Position numbers and translations under genes: made by a program
NCBI GenBank assembly: GCA_028284365.1
Contig: JANQRW010000042.1
Coordinates: forward strand, 1 to 64,000
Source of the DNA: Marinicella sp.
GTDB lineage: Bacteria > Pseudomonadota > Gammaproteobacteria > Xanthomonadales > Marinicellaceae
DNA: 64,000 nt
Reading direction: 5' to 3'
The notes under the pieces: model-generated
Told to the model about the DNA's origin: nothing
What the model saw: only the letters and a program-made list of their open reading frames with translations
Database searches by the model: none
In this document: positions 720 to 27,931 of the stretch, one piece after another
How the letters are laid out: every line of letters starts with the position of its first letter
Numbering within the stretch: the stretch's first letter is position 1

Positions 720-869
720 ATGGTGCGCCTACAGGGAGAAAGTTCGAACTCTTTGTTTGATGAATTGGCCGAATGGAATGAGCAATTAAAGCACACCGAA
801 TACTATACCGAAGAAGCTGATAATCAACCTCAAAAACCAAGAATCAAGCCCCCAGGAGGCTTGTCATGA
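720..869 (+). CDS. Short ORF translationally coupled to mobC
   Basis: A 49-codon frame (ATG at 720) reads MVRLQGESSNSLFDELAEWNEQ and ends PRIKPPGGLS. Its stop overlaps the mobC start in an ATGA, the same 4-base coupling used between mobC and the relaxase. It is too short for the ORF track. No family is recognised. It may be the 3' end of a degraded mob-operon gene, since an in-frame stop lies just upstream at 708-710. The acidic, well-formed coding look and the coupling argue that it was translated. Confidence 0.4.
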   Translation: MVRLQGESSNSLFDELAEWNEQLKHTEYYTEEADNQPQKPRIKPPGGLS

Positions 870-1354
870 CCGCCCAAGGTTCAGGTGGTGATCAGGGTGG
901 CAAAAGACAAGCACCCTTCTCACTGCGCCTCAGCTTCGAGGAAAGAGCCAAGCTGGAAGATTTGGCAGGTGAAATGTCACTGTCTGCTTTTATCAAAGAG
1001 CATTTGTTTCAGGCTCAAATGCCAAGAAAACGCAGAAGACGTAGACCCGCCAAAGACAGTAAACTACTGGCTCAGCTTCTGGCTGTTTTGGGTAAATCAC
1101 GATTACCTCAGAACATGAATCAACTGGCAAAGGCGGCTCATACTGGTTCATTACCTTTACCCATTGAGGTTGAGCGTGAATTGAGACAAGCCTGCTCAGA
1201 CATTCGAGCCATGCGTGAAATGCTCATGAAGGGTTTGGGTTTGAAAGTCAAAGACCAACAAACCAAAGGCAAAGAGTCTTTGAGCCATGCTTTTACCAAA
1301 GCAGCCACGGATATCAGTGAGGTTGGTATGCGCTATCCAAGGCACATACCATGA
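866..1354 (+). CDS. Mobilization protein MobC-like (relaxosome accessory)
   Basis: A 162-residue basic protein with an N-terminal ribbon-helix-helix-like stretch (FSLRLSFEERAKLEDLAGEM) and a later block SRLPQNMNQLAKAAHTGSLP. The latter resembles the NNLNQIAKALNSG signature of the MobC family (PF05713). MobC proteins help the relaxase open the DNA at oriT. A very basic run, PRKRRRRRPAK, lies between the two. The gene overlaps the relaxase start by four bases (ATGA). Position, length and signature agree. Confidence 0.8.
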   Translation: MTAQGSGGDQGGKRQAPFSLRLSFEERAKLEDLAGEMSLSAFIKEHLFQAQMPRKRRRRRPAKDSKLLAQLLAVLGKSRLPQNMNQLAKAAHTGSLPLPIEVERELRQACSDIRAMREMLMKGLGLKVKDQQTKGKESLSHAFTKAATDISEVGMRYPRHIP

Positions 1355-5133: not shown

Positions 5134-5823
5134 ATGACAAAATTGACGCAACAAGCTCAATATGAAATACAAAATCAAGTTAACAAAACCTTATCAAAGT
5201 GGGCAAAAATAATTGGTGTAACTAACTTAATTTTCTTGATAGGGCTTTTTGGATATGTCTTCTTTATTTTCCCAGACCAAGTTATTGGTCCAACCTCTGA
5301 GAAGGTAGTTGAGGAGTTAAAAGGAAGAACCAAAAACTTGTTGAACGAATTGGAGGATGAACATGTTGAAGCGTTTGTATTAATCGGAAATATTGAAGAA
5401 AGAGCAAAAAATCATAACCAAAGACTAGTTGCTCTAAAAGTGGTCTTAGAGTCTTTAGAAAATGAGCTTGAAAGCGTGTCAAAGGGTGTGAACTCAATAA
5501 ATACCCCAGTGATTGAGAAATTAGTAAATTTTATTGAAAGCACAACCGACTCGGAGGAAATAGTGTCATTTGCTGAACAAACATCAAGGCTCAAAGAGGA
5601 TGTTAATCAGCTAAAAGATACAATCGATTCTCTTGGAATGATACCTGAAAAACAGAAATTCGTTATAAATGGGCCAAGAATCGGAGGAGCTGATGCTCAT
5701 GAATGTCCTCCTGGGTATTTTGTGACAAGCCTTCATGCATCAGGTTCTGTTGGTGGGAAATACGGGGTTGATGGAATAAGTGAAATAAGATTTTCTTGTA
5801 GTCCTTTAGTTTCGAAAAAATAG
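5134..5823 (+). CDS. Membrane-anchored coiled-coil protein, unknown function
   Basis: 229 residues: a short cytoplasmic N-terminus, one transmembrane helix (~22-47, IIGVTNLIFLIGLFGYVFFIF), a long heptad-rich coiled coil (~55-180) and a small C-terminal domain with HECPPGYFVTSLHASG and a second Cys near the end. A good AAGGA site precedes the ATG. The small Cys-containing tail could be an extracytoplasmic sensing head, but that is inference. It is the third gene of the nuclease/membrane cassette. Confidence 0.6.
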   Translation: MTKLTQQAQYEIQNQVNKTLSKWAKIIGVTNLIFLIGLFGYVFFIFPDQVIGPTSEKVVEELKGRTKNLLNELEDEHVEAFVLIGNIEERAKNHNQRLVALKVVLESLENELESVSKGVNSINTPVIEKLVNFIESTTDSEEIVSFAEQTSRLKEDVNQLKDTIDSLGMIPEKQKFVINGPRIGGADAHECPPGYFVTSLHASGSVGGKYGVDGISEIRFSCSPLVSKK

Positions 5824-8626: not shown

Positions 8627-10483
8627 TCATATCAAAATAACTTCATTATCTGTAAACCAAGACTCTAGTGCGTATTTTCGTACTGCCTGTGGATTTTTGG
8701 TGTATGCAACAATGGCTAAACTTTTTTCTGCACGACTACAAATAACATAGAATAGTCGTCGTGTTCTGAGCGGGGTAGAATCTTTGCCATCTTTTTGATT
8801 TTTTAAATCTGTCGGACTTAGTGGTTCTGCCCCTAATAATTTTTCATATTTAAACAAAAAGCCTCCTGCACTTTCATCATCTAAAATCGCCATTACCCTG
8901 TCAAACTCTAAACCCTTTACACCTTGGTGAGTTCCGAAGCCCGATTCTTGAATAACATAGTCTGAATATGCTTCAATCTGAGTTATCGTGGCTCGCATTG
9001 CTTTTACCCATGCGACCAACTCATCCGGTTTCGTTTCCTCTTCTTCGTCTGATGAAATAGTGGCTTGGATAGCAAGCTGTAGCATCTCTGGTAACTCCAA
9101 CAAGTTATAATCAGAAATCAATAATAATAGCTCCCTAATTGTTAAGTCTTTTTCTGAAAGTTGAGCTTTAACCTTCTCTATATTTTTATCCGCCTCACCT
9201 AAAAAAGATATGGGGTTTTCAGAGGTTTCTAATTTATTTAAAAAATTATTTCCATTCTTAACAATTCTGGCAATTTCAAAAGCGTCGTTAGTATTGATTG
9301 CTTGAACCAAAGGTATAATTTGATTAAGAATGAAACTGATTTCAGAACTTGTTCCATCTAAAACTGAATCTCGTAACTTTTGATTTCTAGCAAGAGGCAA
9401 AAAGAATGAATCAAAATTTCCTCTTTCGGCAGCCATAGCATGCTCAAGAATTAAATTTTTCACCCCATTTGTTTCAATCCATTCTTCATCTCTGGTAATC
9501 TTGGACATTTCTAACCGAACAGCATCTTCCACAGTTTTTTTATCAGCAACATCAGACCTGACTATAAAAAGCCTTACTGCACCAATTGAAGCATTTTCTC
9601 TAGGCTTTTGCTCAATCCCATCTACTTCTTTTCTTATAGCGTTGACCAGGTTAATAATTCTCTTTGGACTTCTATAGTTAATGTACTTAGCAGGTTTTTT
9701 CCAATCAGGCGGTGTTTTATCAAGGTCTTCCTTTCCTCCACCATAAATACGTTGCATCATGTCACCGAATAAACCAAGTGCAAACTTTGATTTATTTGCT
9801 TGCTGCACTTTAATCAAGGCCGTAATAAAATCTTTATTCGTATCTTGGCTTTCATCAATTAACAATAAGGGAAATCTATTTATGAGTAAGGATTGCATTA
9901 GAGATTGTTCGGAAATAAATTGTGCTGCCATTGCAATCACCTCAGGGTGATTTAGAGCATCTCTCTCAGGCCTACCCCCAGCTGGGCTATAGCTAAACTC
10001 TACGATCGAGTCGATTTTTTCTAATCTTTTTTCTTTACTATCTAGGCTTCTAATATTTCTTTGTGCAGTAATTCCATTTATATCCTTAGCCTTACTAATT
10101 TTTAACTTTAAATCCTGTATTTGCTCTAACAAACGTACTTTTAAAAAATTCCTAATATCCTCATTGAATGGTTTTATAAGTTCCCAAGCAAAACTGTGAA
10201 TTGTCGAGACACTGAAGGCAGGATCGTAATTCAACCTGTGTTTTATTTCATCACAAGCTGCGTTTGTATATGTTATTACTGCAACTTTACCACCTGTGTA
10301 AGTGTACTTTTGAATGTCACTCTTCTTGATAAGTTCTAGCACGTTTACTAAAGTGCGTGTTTTTCCAGACCCTGCTCCAGCAAATAACAAAAAACTTGAA
10401 GGTACATCAGAACTTAAATAATGGTAAATTTCTTTATCTACATCATCAAAATGCTCAGGAAAATTGGGGGTTAATTTACTCAT
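8627..10483 (-). CDS. gajB: UvrD/Rep-type helicase, Gabija GajB-like
   Basis: The 618-residue superfamily 1 helicase has Walker A AGAGSGKT (35-42), Walker B LLIDESQD (~210), motif III/IV-like LFGDMMQRIYGGG, a GTHQGVKGLEFDRVM motif V and a RRLFYVICSRAEKSL motif VI. I place the start at the internal Met (MSKLTPNF), whose ATGAGTAA overlaps the GajA stop by eight bases. The ORF-track start lies inside gajA. In Gabija, GajB is activated by DNA termini and works with the GajA nuclease to abort phage infection. Adjacent order and overlap with an OLD-family gene support that call. It is longer than the usual ~500 residues. Confidence 0.8.
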   Translation of the reverse strand: MSKLTPNFPEHFDDVDKEIYHYLSSDVPSSFLLFAGAGSGKTRTLVNVLELIKKSDIQKYTYTGGKVAVITYTNAACDEIKHRLNYDPAFSVSTIHSFAWELIKPFNEDIRNFLKVRLLEQIQDLKLKISKAKDINGITAQRNIRSLDSKEKRLEKIDSIVEFSYSPAGGRPERDALNHPEVIAMAAQFISEQSLMQSLLINRFPLLLIDESQDTNKDFITALIKVQQANKSKFALGLFGDMMQRIYGGGKEDLDKTPPDWKKPAKYINYRSPKRIINLVNAIRKEVDGIEQKPRENASIGAVRLFIVRSDVADKKTVEDAVRLEMSKITRDEEWIETNGVKNLILEHAMAAERGNFDSFFLPLARNQKLRDSVLDGTSSEISFILNQIIPLVQAINTNDAFEIARIVKNGNNFLNKLETSENPISFLGEADKNIEKVKAQLSEKDLTIRELLLLISDYNLLELPEMLQLAIQATISSDEEEETKPDELVAWVKAMRATITQIEAYSDYVIQESGFGTHQGVKGLEFDRVMAILDDESAGGFLFKYEKLLGAEPLSPTDLKNQKDGKDSTPLRTRRLFYVICSRAEKSLAIVAYTKNPQAVRKYALESWFTDNEVILI

Positions 10484-12797
10484 CTGTATCCACCTTGTCT
10501 TCCTCTTGAGTGAGCAGGTAATCAACGGATGCTTTTTTCAATTCAACTTGCAACCAATCTAACCCCTCCTTGATATAAATCGGTATTTGTAAGTCTTTGG
10601 GTTCAATATCGAATATGACATCTAGAGCCATTTTTGCTTTGTATTTATTATCTAGAGCATCAAACATAGCCTGAGTAGCTTCTTCTAAAGTCTTTTCTTC
10701 ACAAGCAGCTTTCATTTTTTTCAGCATTGCTATTGGTTTGACTAGTTTCTTAACTAAAGCAATATTCGTTAGTACCAAAGCATCTTCAAATGTGTATGGA
10801 ATAGCTTGCTCAATTTGATCCTCTTTAAATTCAACATCTATTTCATTTTGATATGCCACACGAGCATTTGCTTTCACTTTTTTGTCTGGCTTAGCCCTTA
10901 GTACCTCATCCAACGAAGAAATGTTTAAATCAAACCATTTGTCTAAAGTAGAGTTGTCAGAACATTGATTTACTCCTTTTTTAGGCTTTACAGAACCAAT
11001 ACCGATTGTTTCTTCTTGATTTTTGATTACACTTTTTTCTCCTTTGGAATCGAGGTCAGTTATTACGAGAGTTGGCAGCCCTAATGCATCTATTAAAGGC
11101 TTTACCCTTTGAGCATGTGCACCCCCAATTTCTAAGATAGATATATAGCTTCTATTTAAACCTTCTGGCGTGTCATAATTGTTGCGAATGAAGTGTGGTA
11201 GCAGCATTCTTTCGGCAGCACCTTCGACAATGATTATTCCATTTGCAAAAAACAAGTCACAATGTGTGGTTTTAATGTATCTGGTAACAAACTTTTTGGT
11301 ATCTTCTAAATCATCTCCCCCTTTTTTATCTTCTTTAAAAATATCTGAAAGTCCAATCACCTCAGCACAAGCGACTTCTGACATACTAGTAGATGCAATT
11401 CGCTTAAAATATCGCAATTTATCAAAACCTACCTCATTCGCAATGTAGCTTGAATGGCTACTAACTAATACTTGTGTACTGAGTCGGGCAGGAACATCTT
11501 TTCTTAAAACCTCAAATGCTTTTCGGATAAAAACTTGTTGTACTTGAGCATGTAAATGAGCTTCGGGTTCTTCTATCAAAACGATATGTAATGGCTCTAT
11601 TGGTGAGTCGCTCGCAGCAGGCTTATTTTTTGCTTTACCTGTTCGCATCCATCTATCCCTAAAACTAATTAACTTAAAAATCATAAAAATCAGATTTTTA
11701 TAACCTAAGCCGTTGTAACTTTCAGGGAGGGCTAACTCTTTTGATTTATTTTTATTCGGTTTTTTTACATCAAAAATTACTGTTGTATTGTGAGCCAAAT
11801 TTTGAACAGGATCAGCATTACTAGAAAGTATGATTTCAGGATCGTTGAACCCTGGATAGCCAAGTCCTCTCAATTCATTCAAAGCACCATCAAAAGCATC
11901 GTTTAGTTTCTCATCAAAAGATTTTTGAGCTTTGTCGATGGCTGTTAATGCTTCAACATCTTCTTGCTCAGGGTGATCAGTGGGGTTTAAGTGACGAACA
12001 TAGTATTGATGCAACTGTGAAGATAAACTTACACTGGTAGCTCCTGTCATCGAATAAGGATCAGAAAACCCCCTCTGGGCATCAATAATGTCTACTTTAA
12101 ACATGTCCTTGAAAGGATAACTTTTCAGTGGTTGCAACTCTGGTCTTAAAGCTTGCGGCTTATGGTTGTCTCTAGCTATATCAGGATCGAGCAAGTACGC
12201 TTTGATTTCAAAGTATGAACTGAGTTTAGTATCAAGAAACTCTCTGATATTTCTCGGCCAAAGTTGTATTTTTATACTTTTTTCTTTACCTTCATTAGAA
12301 CCTTCAACAGCATTTTTGGCGGAGTTTAAAGCGGCTAAAAAGTCAGACATTAAATTTTCTAATGACTTAGGCTGATATATTAACCTCACACCTAACAACC
12401 CTCCCTTCCATTTTAGAGTTGGTATTAAGTGACTAACATAATGAATTTCCTCCACTTTCACATTCAACCATATGTCAAGAGACGGGCAGAACTCTTGCCA
12501 CTCAGTAAGTGAATCACCAATAATTTCTTCAGGAGAAAAATTCCAGCTTGCTCCAAACTTGTTCAAAGTAGACCAATTCGACAACGTAAAATCTGTTGTG
12601 CAAAGCTTTCTACGTCCAGTATTTTCATCATTCTTTTGATGCTGTGAAGCTTGGCCTAAAAAAATAATTAACGCGTCAATTGCTGATGTCTTTCCACTAT
12701 TGTTTGCTCCTACAAAAATGGTTTCATTCTCAGCTAAATAAATTCGGGTAGATTTTAATTTTCGGTAATTTTGAATATCAATAAATTCAATTTGCAT
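10476..12797 (-). CDS. gajA: OLD-family ATPase/TOPRIM nuclease, Gabija GajA-like
   Basis: 773 residues. An ABC-type ATPase half has Walker A GANNSGKTS (30-38), a signature-like region near 360-370, Walker B HIVLIEEPEAHLH (404-416) and H-loop SSHSS (446-450). The C-terminal TOPRIM half shows IIIVEGAAERM (E525) and VITDLDSKGE (D581, D583). This is the OLD/GajA architecture: a nucleotide-sensing DNA nickase. It is clearly longer than well-studied GajA proteins (just under 600 residues), with extra sequence after the TOPRIM core and between the ATPase motifs. The gene is coupled to gajB by an 8-base overlap. AGAGGG precedes the ATG. Confidence 0.8.
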   Translation of the reverse strand: MQIEFIDIQNYRKLKSTRIYLAENETIFVGANNSGKTSAIDALIIFLGQASQHQKNDENTGRRKLCTTDFTLSNWSTLNKFGASWNFSPEEIIGDSLTEWQEFCPSLDIWLNVKVEEIHYVSHLIPTLKWKGGLLGVRLIYQPKSLENLMSDFLAALNSAKNAVEGSNEGKEKSIKIQLWPRNIREFLDTKLSSYFEIKAYLLDPDIARDNHKPQALRPELQPLKSYPFKDMFKVDIIDAQRGFSDPYSMTGATSVSLSSQLHQYYVRHLNPTDHPEQEDVEALTAIDKAQKSFDEKLNDAFDGALNELRGLGYPGFNDPEIILSSNADPVQNLAHNTTVIFDVKKPNKNKSKELALPESYNGLGYKNLIFMIFKLISFRDRWMRTGKAKNKPAASDSPIEPLHIVLIEEPEAHLHAQVQQVFIRKAFEVLRKDVPARLSTQVLVSSHSSYIANEVGFDKLRYFKRIASTSMSEVACAEVIGLSDIFKEDKKGGDDLEDTKKFVTRYIKTTHCDLFFANGIIIVEGAAERMLLPHFIRNNYDTPEGLNRSYISILEIGGAHAQRVKPLIDALGLPTLVITDLDSKGEKSVIKNQEETIGIGSVKPKKGVNQCSDNSTLDKWFDLNISSLDEVLRAKPDKKVKANARVAYQNEIDVEFKEDQIEQAIPYTFEDALVLTNIALVKKLVKPIAMLKKMKAACEEKTLEEATQAMFDALDNKYKAKMALDVIFDIEPKDLQIPIYIKEGLDWLQVELKKASVDYLLTQEEDKVDTDE

Positions 12798-13952: not shown

Positions 13953-15188
13953 ATGAAACAAAAAACGCTTTTTACAAAACTTGATTGGTCAAGTGTAGAA
14001 AAAAATCAAAAAAGAGCAATGCTTGAAGAAATCTCTACTCTGGACAAAGGCCGTATTTTAGGGGCTTCAATTACTGACTTGTGTGAATACTTCTTCACAA
14101 AATACAAAATTAATACACCTGTTTTGATGGAGGACGAGATTGTTGCCGATCAATATGAAGTAAACATTGATGTTCGCCACGATCTAACAAGAAGTGTCAG
14201 GGACAGAAGTAGGCCGTGCTATGTAAGTGGAACACGTATCGAAGTTATTGTCCCAATTGAAGGAGAGGCTGATGTTTTTAAGATTCATCCAACAACTTAT
14301 GGGACAAGTTATCCATTTGGCGTTATTAAAAACCAGAATTTAGTAATTTCTGTAGAAGGGATAGATTTGAATCCAGATAAGGTGCGTTTTCAAATCGACC
14401 AAAATCTTTCTGATATAAAAAAGTATTTAGGGTATGTCAGTGGTGATATTGGAAATTTAAACGATCAACTTTATGAGCTTGCTGAGCACCACATCAATAA
14501 AAGAAAAGACAAAGTATTGGCTGACCACAACCTTGTGGCTTCGTTGGGGTTTCCTTTGAAGCAAAGGAAAGACAACTCAAGAACTTACCAAACATCAAAG
14601 GTGGTGCGTAAGATAAAGCCTAAACTGCCTCCTGCATCTACCAAACCATATACACCAGAGCCAGAAATCTCTATGGATGACTATGAGCATATATTGGGTG
14701 TAATGGAAAATATGATTGATGTAATGGAAAGAAGCCCATCCGCATTTGCAACAATGAATGAAGAAGACATTCGTACACACTTTCTTGTTCAGCTTAATGG
14801 CCATTATGAAGGAAAAGCCACTGGTGAAACATTTAATTACAAAGGTAAAACAGACATTCTAATACCTGTTAATGGCAGAAATGTTTTCATTGCTGAGTGC
14901 AAGTTTTGGTCAGGCTCAAAAGGTTTTTTGAAATCTATTGATCAATTGCTCAGTTATAATTGTTGGAGGGATAGTAAAACAGCTCTGATTATATTTAACA
15001 GAAGAAAAAACTTATCTTCTGTTTTAAGCTCAATACAAAAAAATATCGAAAAACATGAGAATTACAAAAAAGAAATTGATCAAGAAAGTGAGACAAATTT
15101 CAGATACATATTCTCAAATAATGACGACATTGACAGAGAAATCATGCTAACGGTAATGGTATTTGATGTACCAAGTGAGCAAGTATAG
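13953..15188 (+). CDS. PD-(D/E)XK nuclease-like protein
   Basis: 411 residues. The C-terminal third reads GKTDILIPVNGRNVFIAECKFW followed by SIDQLLSYNCWRDSKTALIIFNR. The D...E-x-K spacing with a following helix that carries Q/D is typical of PD-(D/E)XK restriction-fold nucleases. The N-terminal two thirds (~1-230) contain a beta-rich section (YVSGTRIEVIVPIEGEADVFKIHPTTYG) of unknown kind, perhaps a sensing domain. AT-rich codon use matches the neighbouring cargo. Its place beside Gabija suggests defence, but that is an inference. Confidence 0.6.
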   Translation: MKQKTLFTKLDWSSVEKNQKRAMLEEISTLDKGRILGASITDLCEYFFTKYKINTPVLMEDEIVADQYEVNIDVRHDLTRSVRDRSRPCYVSGTRIEVIVPIEGEADVFKIHPTTYGTSYPFGVIKNQNLVISVEGIDLNPDKVRFQIDQNLSDIKKYLGYVSGDIGNLNDQLYELAEHHINKRKDKVLADHNLVASLGFPLKQRKDNSRTYQTSKVVRKIKPKLPPASTKPYTPEPEISMDDYEHILGVMENMIDVMERSPSAFATMNEEDIRTHFLVQLNGHYEGKATGETFNYKGKTDILIPVNGRNVFIAECKFWSGSKGFLKSIDQLLSYNCWRDSKTALIIFNRRKNLSSVLSSIQKNIEKHENYKKEIDQESETNFRYIFSNNDDIDREIMLTVMVFDVPSEQV

Positions 15189-22582: not shown

Positions 22583-24073
22583 ATGGATTTCAAAGACTTG
22601 CCTCGTGGGGTTCAAGGCACTCGCACAGATTTAACCTATGCCCCCCAAGCCACTTGGGCATCACAACACGCGCTTGATAATAGTGATCAACTATCATTCA
22701 GTGATGATAAAGTATATTTGGGCACAACCATCAATGGCAGCAAAATTTCTGTTGGTGGTGACCGTCATTTATTAACCATTGCTGGCACACGTTCAGGTAA
22801 AGGTACATCAGCCATCATACCCAATTTACTGCTTTATACTGGCTCAGTCTTTGTTATTGATCCAAAGGGTGAGAATGCCACCATCACTGCCGAACGTAGA
22901 GGACACGGCAGAGGCATAAAAAATGGCGGAATGAACCAAGAGGTTTTTGTCATTGACCCGTTTAAGGTTGCTGATGTTCCCGATGAATACCGTGCAGGTT
23001 ATGACCCAATCAAATACTTAAAAGCCGAAAGTGATGATTTCATTGATGATTGTGACAACATTGCTGATGCGTTGGTGGTTGCACCAGCTGATAAGCTGAA
23101 TGATTTTTGGAACTCATCTGCCCGAAATGTTTTAAGGGGTTTTATTGCATGGATTGCCGATGGGCCGGGTATTGAAGATCGGTCTTTAAATGAACTGAGA
23201 AGACTTATCAACCTACCATCCCAGAAAAAAGTACCTGAGAATATAGTTGAGGAAATTGAAACATTTGAGTCGGTTTTGTACGATATGTTATTTGCTGATC
23301 ATGTGGGAGAAGGCATCCCTACTGAAACAGCATCAGCCCTTTTGAGCATGGATGATCGGGAACGTGCCAATGTGATGGCAACGGTGCGACAACAAATTTC
23401 ATTCATCAGTTCACCACAAATCGGGAAAATGGTAACCCATGACAGACAGATTCCTGATCTTGAAAACTGGAAGCTTAATGGCATGACAATTTACCTTTGC
23501 CTGCCTGCTGGTAGAATGCACAGACACAACAGATTCATGCGTTTGTTCATCAATCAACTGTTCAATGCCATTGAACAAAAAAAACAGGAACCACGAACCC
23601 GTGCGTTAATGATTTTGGATGAAATACATGTTTTGGGATACATGAATTCAATTGAGATGTCCACTGCATTGCTTGCTGGCTTTGGAGTGCGCATTTGGTC
23701 AATATGGCAGGACTTGAGCCAAATGAAAGACCTGTACTCCAAACGCTGGGAAACCTTCATGGGAAATGCTGGCGTTGTACAGTGGTTCGGGTTGAATGAC
23801 CTGTCCTCACTTGAATACGTTTCCAAGCGCTTAGGAAATACTTCGGTCATGAGAATATCTAAAAATGAAATCAGCTCGCACCAGGCTGCAAGTGGTTTTG
23901 ATGGAAAAAGCAGATCAATTGAACAAATGCCACTGTTAACCCCTGATGAGGTTGCTAAATTCTTTGCCAGACAAACATCTAATCAGCTGGTTATTTACCC
24001 AGGGTCTGATCCCTTCTTTTTAAAACGCACCCCATATTACGAAGTGATGCAAAGTTATCTTATTAACAAATGA
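22583..24073 (+). CDS. Type IV secretion coupling protein (VirD4/TraG-like ATPase)
   Basis: 496 residues. Walker A is LLTIAGTRSGKGTS (63-76), followed by FVIDPKGENATITAERR, typical of TraG/VirD4 proteins, and Walker B is ALMILDEIHVLG (~345). These hexameric ATPases hand the relaxase-DNA complex to a conjugation channel. The usual N-terminal transmembrane helices are absent, so it is a short, soluble-type coupling protein; the following gene (24070, overlapping ATGA) encodes two membrane helices and may anchor it. No other T4SS gene is in view, as expected of a mobilizable element with its own coupling protein. Confidence 0.85.
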   Translation: MDFKDLPRGVQGTRTDLTYAPQATWASQHALDNSDQLSFSDDKVYLGTTINGSKISVGGDRHLLTIAGTRSGKGTSAIIPNLLLYTGSVFVIDPKGENATITAERRGHGRGIKNGGMNQEVFVIDPFKVADVPDEYRAGYDPIKYLKAESDDFIDDCDNIADALVVAPADKLNDFWNSSARNVLRGFIAWIADGPGIEDRSLNELRRLINLPSQKKVPENIVEEIETFESVLYDMLFADHVGEGIPTETASALLSMDDRERANVMATVRQQISFISSPQIGKMVTHDRQIPDLENWKLNGMTIYLCLPAGRMHRHNRFMRLFINQLFNAIEQKKQEPRTRALMILDEIHVLGYMNSIEMSTALLAGFGVRIWSIWQDLSQMKDLYSKRWETFMGNAGVVQWFGLNDLSSLEYVSKRLGNTSVMRISKNEISSHQAASGFDGKSRSIEQMPLLTPDEVAKFFARQTSNQLVIYPGSDPFFLKRTPYYEVMQSYLINK

Positions 24074-25796: not shown

Positions 25797-26040
25797 AAAG
25801 CCATATCGTACTAAATTTGGCTGGCATTTGTAATATTCCAGAATGTTACAACGCCAAAATCGCTTAATTATCTTGCGCTTCTTAATCTGGAATCATTCAA
25901 AGCAAGGCAAGGATATAAGATGAATTTATTAGATGATTCCAACTGCATACGTGGATATGTTGAATTAACCTTTCAAGGCGTTTTATTAACCTTTTACTGC
26001 TATTCTGAAAGTAAGAGGATGGGTCAAATGAGAGGTGCTT

Positions 26041-26307
26041 ATGAAACCTGATTTAGACCGATACCTGCCATACATAGAAGACATTGAAATGTCTGATAAA
26101 CAAAAGCAGGAATTACTCGCATCTTTATGGACGGTCATGCAGGTTTTTGTGGATTTGGGTTTTGGCGTTGATGCCACTCAGAACGCCATCTTTGCCAAAC
26201 AAATAAGTGCTGGTAAAGAGTCTGCGGATTCTCTAAGATTCAAATTCAATCAAAAAGCACAAGTAAAGAAGAACACCAAGAAGAAAGGAGTGCGTTATGA
26301 GCCGTAA
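26041..26307 (+). CDS. Small protein coupled to the serine recombinase
   Basis: 88 residues, MKPDLDRYLPYIEDIEMSDKQKQELLASLWTVMQVFVDLGFG..., with AGAGG six bases before the ATG. The end overlaps the recombinase start by 11 bases. Small helical partners of this kind are common in front of large serine recombinases in mobile elements. The function is unknown; it may be a directionality or stability factor, which is conjecture. Confidence 0.55.
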   Translation: MKPDLDRYLPYIEDIEMSDKQKQELLASLWTVMQVFVDLGFGVDATQNAIFAKQISAGKESADSLRFKFNQKAQVKKNTKKKGVRYEP

Positions 26308-27931
26308 AAAAGCCGTGATCTATGCACGGGTATCCAGCACCAAGCAAATGGTTGATGGTGATGGGTTGAACTCTCAAGTAAGCAGGTGCGCTGAATATGC
26401 CAAGCGTAAGGGCTATGAAGTGGTTAAAACATTTAAAGACGATGTCTCTGGGGCTTTGACTACAAGACCTGCCATGAAAGCCATGTTGCAGTTTCTAAGG
26501 CGCAGAAGAAAAGACCCTCACATCGTCATCATTGATGATATCTCAAGGCTAGCAAGAAACATTGAAGCCCATCTGCAACTTCGGGCTGCCATTGGGGGAG
26601 CCAGTGGCGTACTGGAATCTCCTACGATGGAATTTGGGGATGACTCGGATTCATTGCTGGTTGAAAACCTGCTTGCCAGTGTGTCACAACACCAAAGACA
26701 AAAGAACGCTGAACAAACCAAAAACCGCATGATTGGTCGAACCATGAATGGTTATTGGGTGTTTCATGCCCCTTATGGCTACCGCTACCAAGCGGTTAAA
26801 GGTCATGGCAAGTTGTTGGTCAGAGATGAACCCTTGGCATCGGTCATTCAAGAAGCCCTTGAGGGTTATGCCTCAGGTCGTTTTGAAAGCCAAACAGAGG
26901 TCAAACGCTTTATGGAACAGCACAATGTCTTCCCCAAAACAGAAACGGGTGAGAATGTCAGGTATCAAAAGGTCAACAACATTCTGAAAAAGCCCATCTA
27001 TGCAGGATTGATTGAAGTACACAATTGGGGCGTTACGCTCCGTCAGGGGCATCATGAGGGCTTGATTAGCGTAGAGACCTATGAACGCATCCAAGAGCGA
27101 TTAACAGCCACTACCAAAGCACCTGCACGCAAAGACCTGTCTTTGGACTTTCCCTTAAGAGGTTTCATTACCTGTGATGACTGTAAAAAGCCATTAACAG
27201 CTTGCTGGTCAAAAGGTAAGACCAAAAGCTACCCTTATTACCTGTGCAACCAAAAGGGCTGTGTCAGCAAGGGTAAATCCATACCTAAACACAAATTGGA
27301 AGGTGAGTTTGATGAGTTGTTAAAAACCCTCGTACCTTCCAATGAAATTATTGAGGTATCGGCTGTGATGTTCAAAGATGCGTGGAACATGCGCATAGAG
27401 CAGGTCAAAGCCATTGCTGCTGACATGATGGTAAGCATCAAAAAGATTGATCAGAAGATCAAGCAATTGGTTGATCGGGTATTAACCTCGAAAAGCCAGA
27501 CAGTGGTCAATGCTTATGAGAATCAAATCAACGAACTGGAAAAGGAGCGTGAAATGATTAAGTTAAAACAAGAGAAGCAATCGAAACCAGAAAGGCCGTT
27601 TAGTGAGATGTTCGAACTCGCTATGGACTTCCTCTCAAACCCCCGTCAGCTCTGGGTTTCAGATAAAATCAATGACAAAAGAACGGTGTTAAAACTGACA
27701 TTTGGACACAAATTAGCCTACAACAGACAAACAGGCTATCGAACACCTAAAATGTCCTTACCTTTCAAGATGTTAAGGGATTTAAAAACCTTTGAAAAAG
27801 AAATGGTGCCGAGGGCGAGAATCGAACTCGCACTTCCGAAGAAACCGGATTTTGAATCCGGCGCGTCTACCAATTCCGCCACCCCGGCACAGGCGGTAAA
27901 GTATATAAGATTTTTATTTTATGGCAAGTGA
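26297..27931 (+). CDS. Large serine recombinase (integrase of the element)
   Basis: 544 residues as an open frame. The resolvase domain begins VIYARVSSTKQ with catalytic Ser13 and has IDDISRLARN (~75-85). A recombinase domain and a zinc ribbon, CDDCKKPLTACW...YYLCNQKGC (~295-325), follow, then a coiled coil (~365-440). This is the full large serine recombinase layout. The ribosome site AAGGAG precedes the ATG. The last ~43 codons (from MVPRARIELALP on) are the antisense of the tRNA-Leu gene and its promoter. The true C-terminus is therefore junction-dependent; the native protein should end near residue 500-510, or differently in the excised form. Confidence 0.88.
   Translation: MSRKKAVIYARVSSTKQMVDGDGLNSQVSRCAEYAKRKGYEVVKTFKDDVSGALTTRPAMKAMLQFLRRRRKDPHIVIIDDISRLARNIEAHLQLRAAIGGASGVLESPTMEFGDDSDSLLVENLLASVSQHQRQKNAEQTKNRMIGRTMNGYWVFHAPYGYRYQAVKGHGKLLVRDEPLASVIQEALEGYASGRFESQTEVKRFMEQHNVFPKTETGENVRYQKVNNILKKPIYAGLIEVHNWGVTLRQGHHEGLISVETYERIQERLTATTKAPARKDLSLDFPLRGFITCDDCKKPLTACWSKGKTKSYPYYLCNQKGCVSKGKSIPKHKLEGEFDELLKTLVPSNEIIEVSAVMFKDAWNMRIEQVKAIAADMMVSIKKIDQKIKQLVDRVLTSKSQTVVNAYENQINELEKEREMIKLKQEKQSKPERPFSEMFELAMDFLSNPRQLWVSDKINDKRTVLKLTFGHKLAYNRQTGYRTPKMSLPFKMLRDLKTFEKEMVPRARIELALPKKPDFESGASTNSATPAQAVKYIRFLFYGK
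27804..27888 (-). tRNA. tRNA-Leu (anticodon CAA)
   Basis: 85 bases with encoded CCA. On the minus strand the acceptor GCCGGGG pairs with CCTCGGC (one G-T). A D-arm with GGTAGACGC, an anticodon stem CCGGA-TTCAAAA-TCCGG giving anticodon CAA, a long class II variable arm and the GTTCGATTC T-loop are all present. The 3' end faces the recombinase gene, the usual orientation for a tRNA whose 3' end hosts an integration. Confidence 0.95.
27900..27927 (-). promoter_or_regulatory. Promoter of tRNA-Leu
   Basis: On the minus strand TTGCCA (27927-27922) and TATACT (27905-27900) are 16 bases apart, about 12 bases before the tRNA 5' end. The promoter lies wholly inside the readthrough tail of the recombinase frame. 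Confidence 0.6.

Follow-up and report, generated by a model that had tools for sequence, protein, structure and literature searches.

A tRNA-integrated mobile element whose large serine recombinase gene is separated from a conserved C-terminal tail encoded at the opposite end of the element

A mobile element of about 27.1 kb, located at positions 721-27803 of the 64,000 nucleotide stretch of Marinicella sp. DNA analysed here (the window; GCA_028284365.1, contig JANQRW010000042.1, positions 1 to 64,000), is inserted at the very end of a tRNA-Leu gene in such a way that its own large serine recombinase (LSR) gene is cut from a conserved C-terminal tail. The tail is encoded at the far end of the element, and in the circular form predicted from the sequence the two parts are rejoined in frame. 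Relatives with the same organisation at many different tRNA genes, together with evidence of protein-level selection on the tail, show that this is a widespread and selected design, although excision and the fused protein are inferred from sequence comparison only, without reads or PCR.

The LSR frame (26297-27931, plus strand, 544 aa) carries the Resolvase (PF00239, 7e-24), Recombinase (PF07508, 8e-10) and Zn_ribbon_recom (PF13408, 2e-7) domains. It is only a distant relative of SCCmec CcrB, scoring 84.8 bits against an NCBIfam equivalog cut-off of 900. ARAGORN identified a single tRNA in the window, an intact tRNA-Leu(CAA) at 27804-27888 on the minus strand, CCA included, with its 3' end facing the recombinase. 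The element-encoded part of the LSR (26297-27803) has no stop codon; the frame continues for 42 sense codons through the antisense tRNA and its promoter (27900-27927, minus strand) and stops at the TGA at 27929-27931, just past the tRNA -35. As read from the sequence, the -35 is the complement of TTGCCA (27922-27927) and the -10 the complement of TATACT (27900-27905). The initial annotation, which had described a recombinase frame running some 40 codons across the tRNA-Leu and its promoter and had proposed that the C-terminus would differ between integrated and excised states, is confirmed on the first point and supported on the second, since the boundary found in an empty site and the absence of internal stops in homologous recombinases both favour it. 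The key part could not be seen from that annotation, namely that the excised-state C-terminus is encoded at the other end of the element, is conserved and is under selection. Its remark that large serine recombinases rarely use tRNA genes fits the literature (PMC3218068, PMC4383910), but the present family does so systematically. Transcription antisense to the tRNA, also proposed there, is a geometric consequence of the arrangement.

The element is bounded by the repeat GAAATGGTGC, present at 717-726 (core TGGTGC, 721-726) and at 27800-27809, where the TGG at 27804-27806 is the complement of the tRNA CCA. A whole-window repeat search had missed the left end, since the shared core is only 10 bp, and it was found through the tail described below. 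Same-genus genomes have an unoccupied tRNA-Leu next to the same hpf and dps genes, and their similarity to the window stops at the CCA end. In one of these genomes (G008) the flanks are joined: the host stretch at 379-672 of the window matches positions 5173-5469 of the G008 locus L019 (E 4e-41), next to the intact tRNA-Leu (L019 5524 on, 97%), and joining the two window flanks gives a sequence collinear with G008. This empty site comes from another species, with a 73% similar flank. A repeat at positions 1-99 of the window is found at the starts of other contigs of the same genome and in relatives, and is probably an insertion sequence end that broke the assembly.

With its own LSR and relaxase and flanking att repeats, the element has the composition of an integrative and mobilizable element. 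Downstream of the left end are a MobC-like mobilization gene (866-1354, plus strand), assigned by position and similarity among loci in the absence of a Pfam hit, and a relaxase (PF03432; 1351-2637, plus strand). A VirD4/TraG-type coupling protein is encoded at 22583-24073 (plus strand), and no other T4SS gene was found among the element ORFs searched. The element also carries ArdA and, at 8627-12797, a Gabija anti-phage system (GajB and GajA), with a PDC-S54 candidate defence protein at 13953-15188. A small gene (26035-26307, plus strand) overlaps the start of the LSR; look-alikes were recognised by eye upstream of the LSR in four other loci (L023, L071, L083 and L227), and it is possibly an accessory or directionality factor.

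To determine whether the arrangement is accidental, GTDB contigs were scanned, which gave 80 loci with 50-61% identical recombinases, mostly in Alphaproteobacteria, with Gammaproteobacteria, Nitrospirales and others. In 65 of the 80 a tRNA gene follows, always antisense, and together with the window the LSR frame is open into the tRNA in 66 of 66 cases. The tRNA end lies 20, 23, 26, 29, 38 or 44 nt after the last aligned LSR residue, which is a single phase in 65 of 66, the exception being locus L104. The remaining 15 loci lack a recognisable tRNA at the LSR end (contig edges, tRNA fragments, tails, decay). Nine amino-acid families are targeted (Arg, Ser, Leu, Thr, Ala, Phe, Glu, Lys and Val), with 16 parsimony changes of target amino acid on the recombinase tree (FastTree), and a 36% relative enters tmRNA. 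Two different elements of the family in one genome (G023) end in a tRNA-Glu of the same sequence. Among IMG/VR contigs some family members (42-52%) show tRNA-Ala overlaps, while LSRs of 22-29% identity do not show the pattern as a rule. Two distant LSRs of 25% identity in viral contigs (L232, 3820-5464, and the end of L234) nevertheless appear to end in tRNA or tRNA-like antisense sequence (tRNA-His in L232), so the design may be wider than this family. The plasmid collection gave only distant hits, and the phage collection gave relatives under 60% identity, those listed being 23-25%, and no hit to the tail.

Three loci (L071, L083 and L116) continued not into a tRNA but into a shared peptide followed by mob genes. 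The same peptide is encoded at the left end of the window element (720-869, plus strand; MVRLQGESSNSLFDELAEWNEQLKH...), in frame with the ATG in the core, and shows the conserved pattern S-N-x-L-F-x-x-L-x-x-W-N/E-x-x-L. A profile of eleven such tails found it in 61 of 80 searched genomes, nearly all chosen because they carry the LSR, but in only 5 of 369 genomes of the window's class, three of which also have the LSR. In all same-contig pairs the tail is upstream on the LSR strand. In 29 of 29 pairs examined the two ends share 6-10 bp beginning at TGG, and an in-silico circle reads straight from recombinase into tail. The left end of L069 abuts another recombinase 3' end, a tandem copy. Two more left ends are present in the genome of the window (G000): contig C43 (L201) has a tRNA-Arg-type core, tail and MobC, while contig C21 (L202, 6976-11941) has a left end and a tRNA-Thr right end but no recognisable recombinase, and is a decayed or non-autonomous element. 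Ten tail matches in one alphaproteobacterial MAG (G433, the genome of L064) suggest many such elements in one genome or bin.

Past the att arm, codons 11-23 of 60 non-redundant tails have a pN/pS of 0.45 in the LSR frame, against 0.84 and 1.70 in the other two frames, and identity by codon position is 0.56, 0.71 and 0.34. The F, L and W positions are almost invariant. MobC or relaxase genes follow 58 of 65 tails, often with an ATGA stop-start overlap, as in the window. Of the three natural LSR-tail fusions on chromosomes, those of L071 and L083 have damaged LSRs. However, a phage contig (L227; terminase-like, portal-like and methylase-like ORFs recognised by eye) carries an intact 533-aa recombinase of 46% identity that ends in the tail, with the attP spacing, as expected for an unintegrated genome. 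AlphaFold of a natural fusion (L116) predicts the usual domain order with long paired helices as in the coiled coil, and a tail helix with pLDDT below 50, and it did not place the tail.

The geometry of the att sites agrees with what is known for serine integrases. In tails (n = 65) the TCGAAC motif starts 23 nt after the first core base (744-749 in the window), while in tRNAs (n = 71) the TCGAAC of the T-loop starts 18 nt after it (27822-27827, antisense), and the latter is proposed to be the attB motif read by the zinc-ribbon domain. Serine integrases read the same zinc-ribbon motif 5 bp closer to the centre in attB than in attP, as described for the A118-family (LI) integrase, which targets comK (PMC3783163). 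Placing the half-site numbering of that work on these sites would put the crossover inside the shared TGGYGS, and the tRNA would stay intact. Conservation on the host side of the left core falls to about 0 bits, apart from a weak A-rich preference next to it, which marks the boundary and suggests that most target recognition comes from the tRNA. As the attB arm outside the tRNA shows almost no conservation, the half-site model is supported on the tRNA side only; two apparently P-type right ends (L062 and L080) are register artefacts.

The explanation we favour, with high confidence, is that attP lies inside the LSR coding sequence, one arm being the 3' part of the LSR gene and the other the tail ORF, while attB is the tRNA 3' end. 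Integration separates the LSR from its tail, so that its frame reads antisense into the tRNA to a chance stop, and also separates it from the MobC and relaxase genes. Excision would fuse LSR, tail, MobC and relaxase into one overlapping gene string, and the recombinase isoform and the expression of the transfer genes would thus be set by the physical state of the element. Excision, operon expression and a function of the tail are inferred.

An alternative is that tail and overlap are only att-site DNA, conserved because the LSR binds it, with an incidental open frame and an LSR that works the same with any C-terminus. Part of the tail is indeed the attP arm, where pN/pS is near 1 (0.93), and the integrated-state C-termini differ in length and sequence, so that the LSR tolerates variety there. 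We consider this unlikely, since conservation continues beyond the expected 25-bp half-site to about +67, with free third codon positions and low pN/pS in the LSR frame only, and since L227 keeps the motif S-S-N..L..W with different codons. Even less likely is that the tail is a separate leader peptide, started at the core ATG and serving translational coupling to MobC from host-side transcription, with no function for the fusion to the LSR. The core ATG and the ATGA overlaps would agree with this, but the sequence upstream of the left core is unconserved, with no ribosome-binding motif evident in the logo, tail and LSR fuse in frame in all 29 pairs, and the tail of L227 is not followed by MobC. 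Chance loss of an LSR stop codon, with a spurious run into the tRNA, is refuted for the family by the open frames, 65 of 66 in the same phase, in several bacterial phyla, even if antisense tRNA frames may often be mis-annotated as protein and the tRNA part of the C-terminus is not conserved as protein.

Precedents exist for this organisation. In the ssrA-specific islands of Dehalococcoides the serine recombinase gene dsiB overlaps the att site at its 3' end, has no stop inside the island and runs into tmRNA (complementary strand) or a neighbouring island, and it was suggested that it may be fully functional only on the circle (McMurdie 2011, PMC3146451). Those islands have a single target, an insertion placed mid T-loop with a 20-bp repeat and two recombinases (DsiA/DsiB), and no conserved circle-encoded tail is described there, while in the present family many tRNAs are used and the core is at the CCA, and one LSR and a 10-bp repeat were found in the window element. 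In myxophage Mx8 attP lies inside the integrase gene intP and integration gives the integrase a new C-terminus (PMC6070905; Tojo 1996 cited in PMC4383910), but the protein and the att chemistry are unrelated and Islander handles it among tyrosine integrases. Serine recombinases at tRNA genes are known but rare. That of the Ralstonia filamentous phage phiRSM integrates at the 3' end of a tRNA-Ser, with a core TGGCGGAGAGGGT starting at the CCA complement like the tRNA-Ser members here, but it is small (196 aa in phiRs551) and attP lies between two ORFs, with no coding overlap reported (PMC3816273, PMC5608472). Mycobacterial AICEs, which are actinobacterial elements, combine a serine recombinase with a tRNA-Leu target, with no gene overlap or tail described (PMC3218068). 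In the open-access papers searched, we found no report of the conserved circle-encoded tail, of its link to the mob genes or of T-loop recognition with the 5-bp shift.

A further reading, which we regard as about as likely as not, is that the protein of this tRNA-targeting family is physically rewritten by each integration, the circle-only tail acting as a directionality or activity switch and the same junction switching the mobilisation operon on, so that integration state is encoded in gene structure rather than in a regulator. Reading the universal T-loop would explain how one family moved among nine tRNA families and tmRNA. From the practical point of view, ordinary ORF calling would report the integrated-state C-terminus as protein sequence although it is antisense tRNA, and the precise att sites for many targets could be useful for integration tools. 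The data offer a likely answer to the question left open for Dehalococcoides dsiB, namely what the recombinase C-terminus is on the circle, and make state-dependent control of a serine integrase and of mobilisation directly testable in a broad family that uses tRNA genes, apparently by reading a universal tRNA feature.
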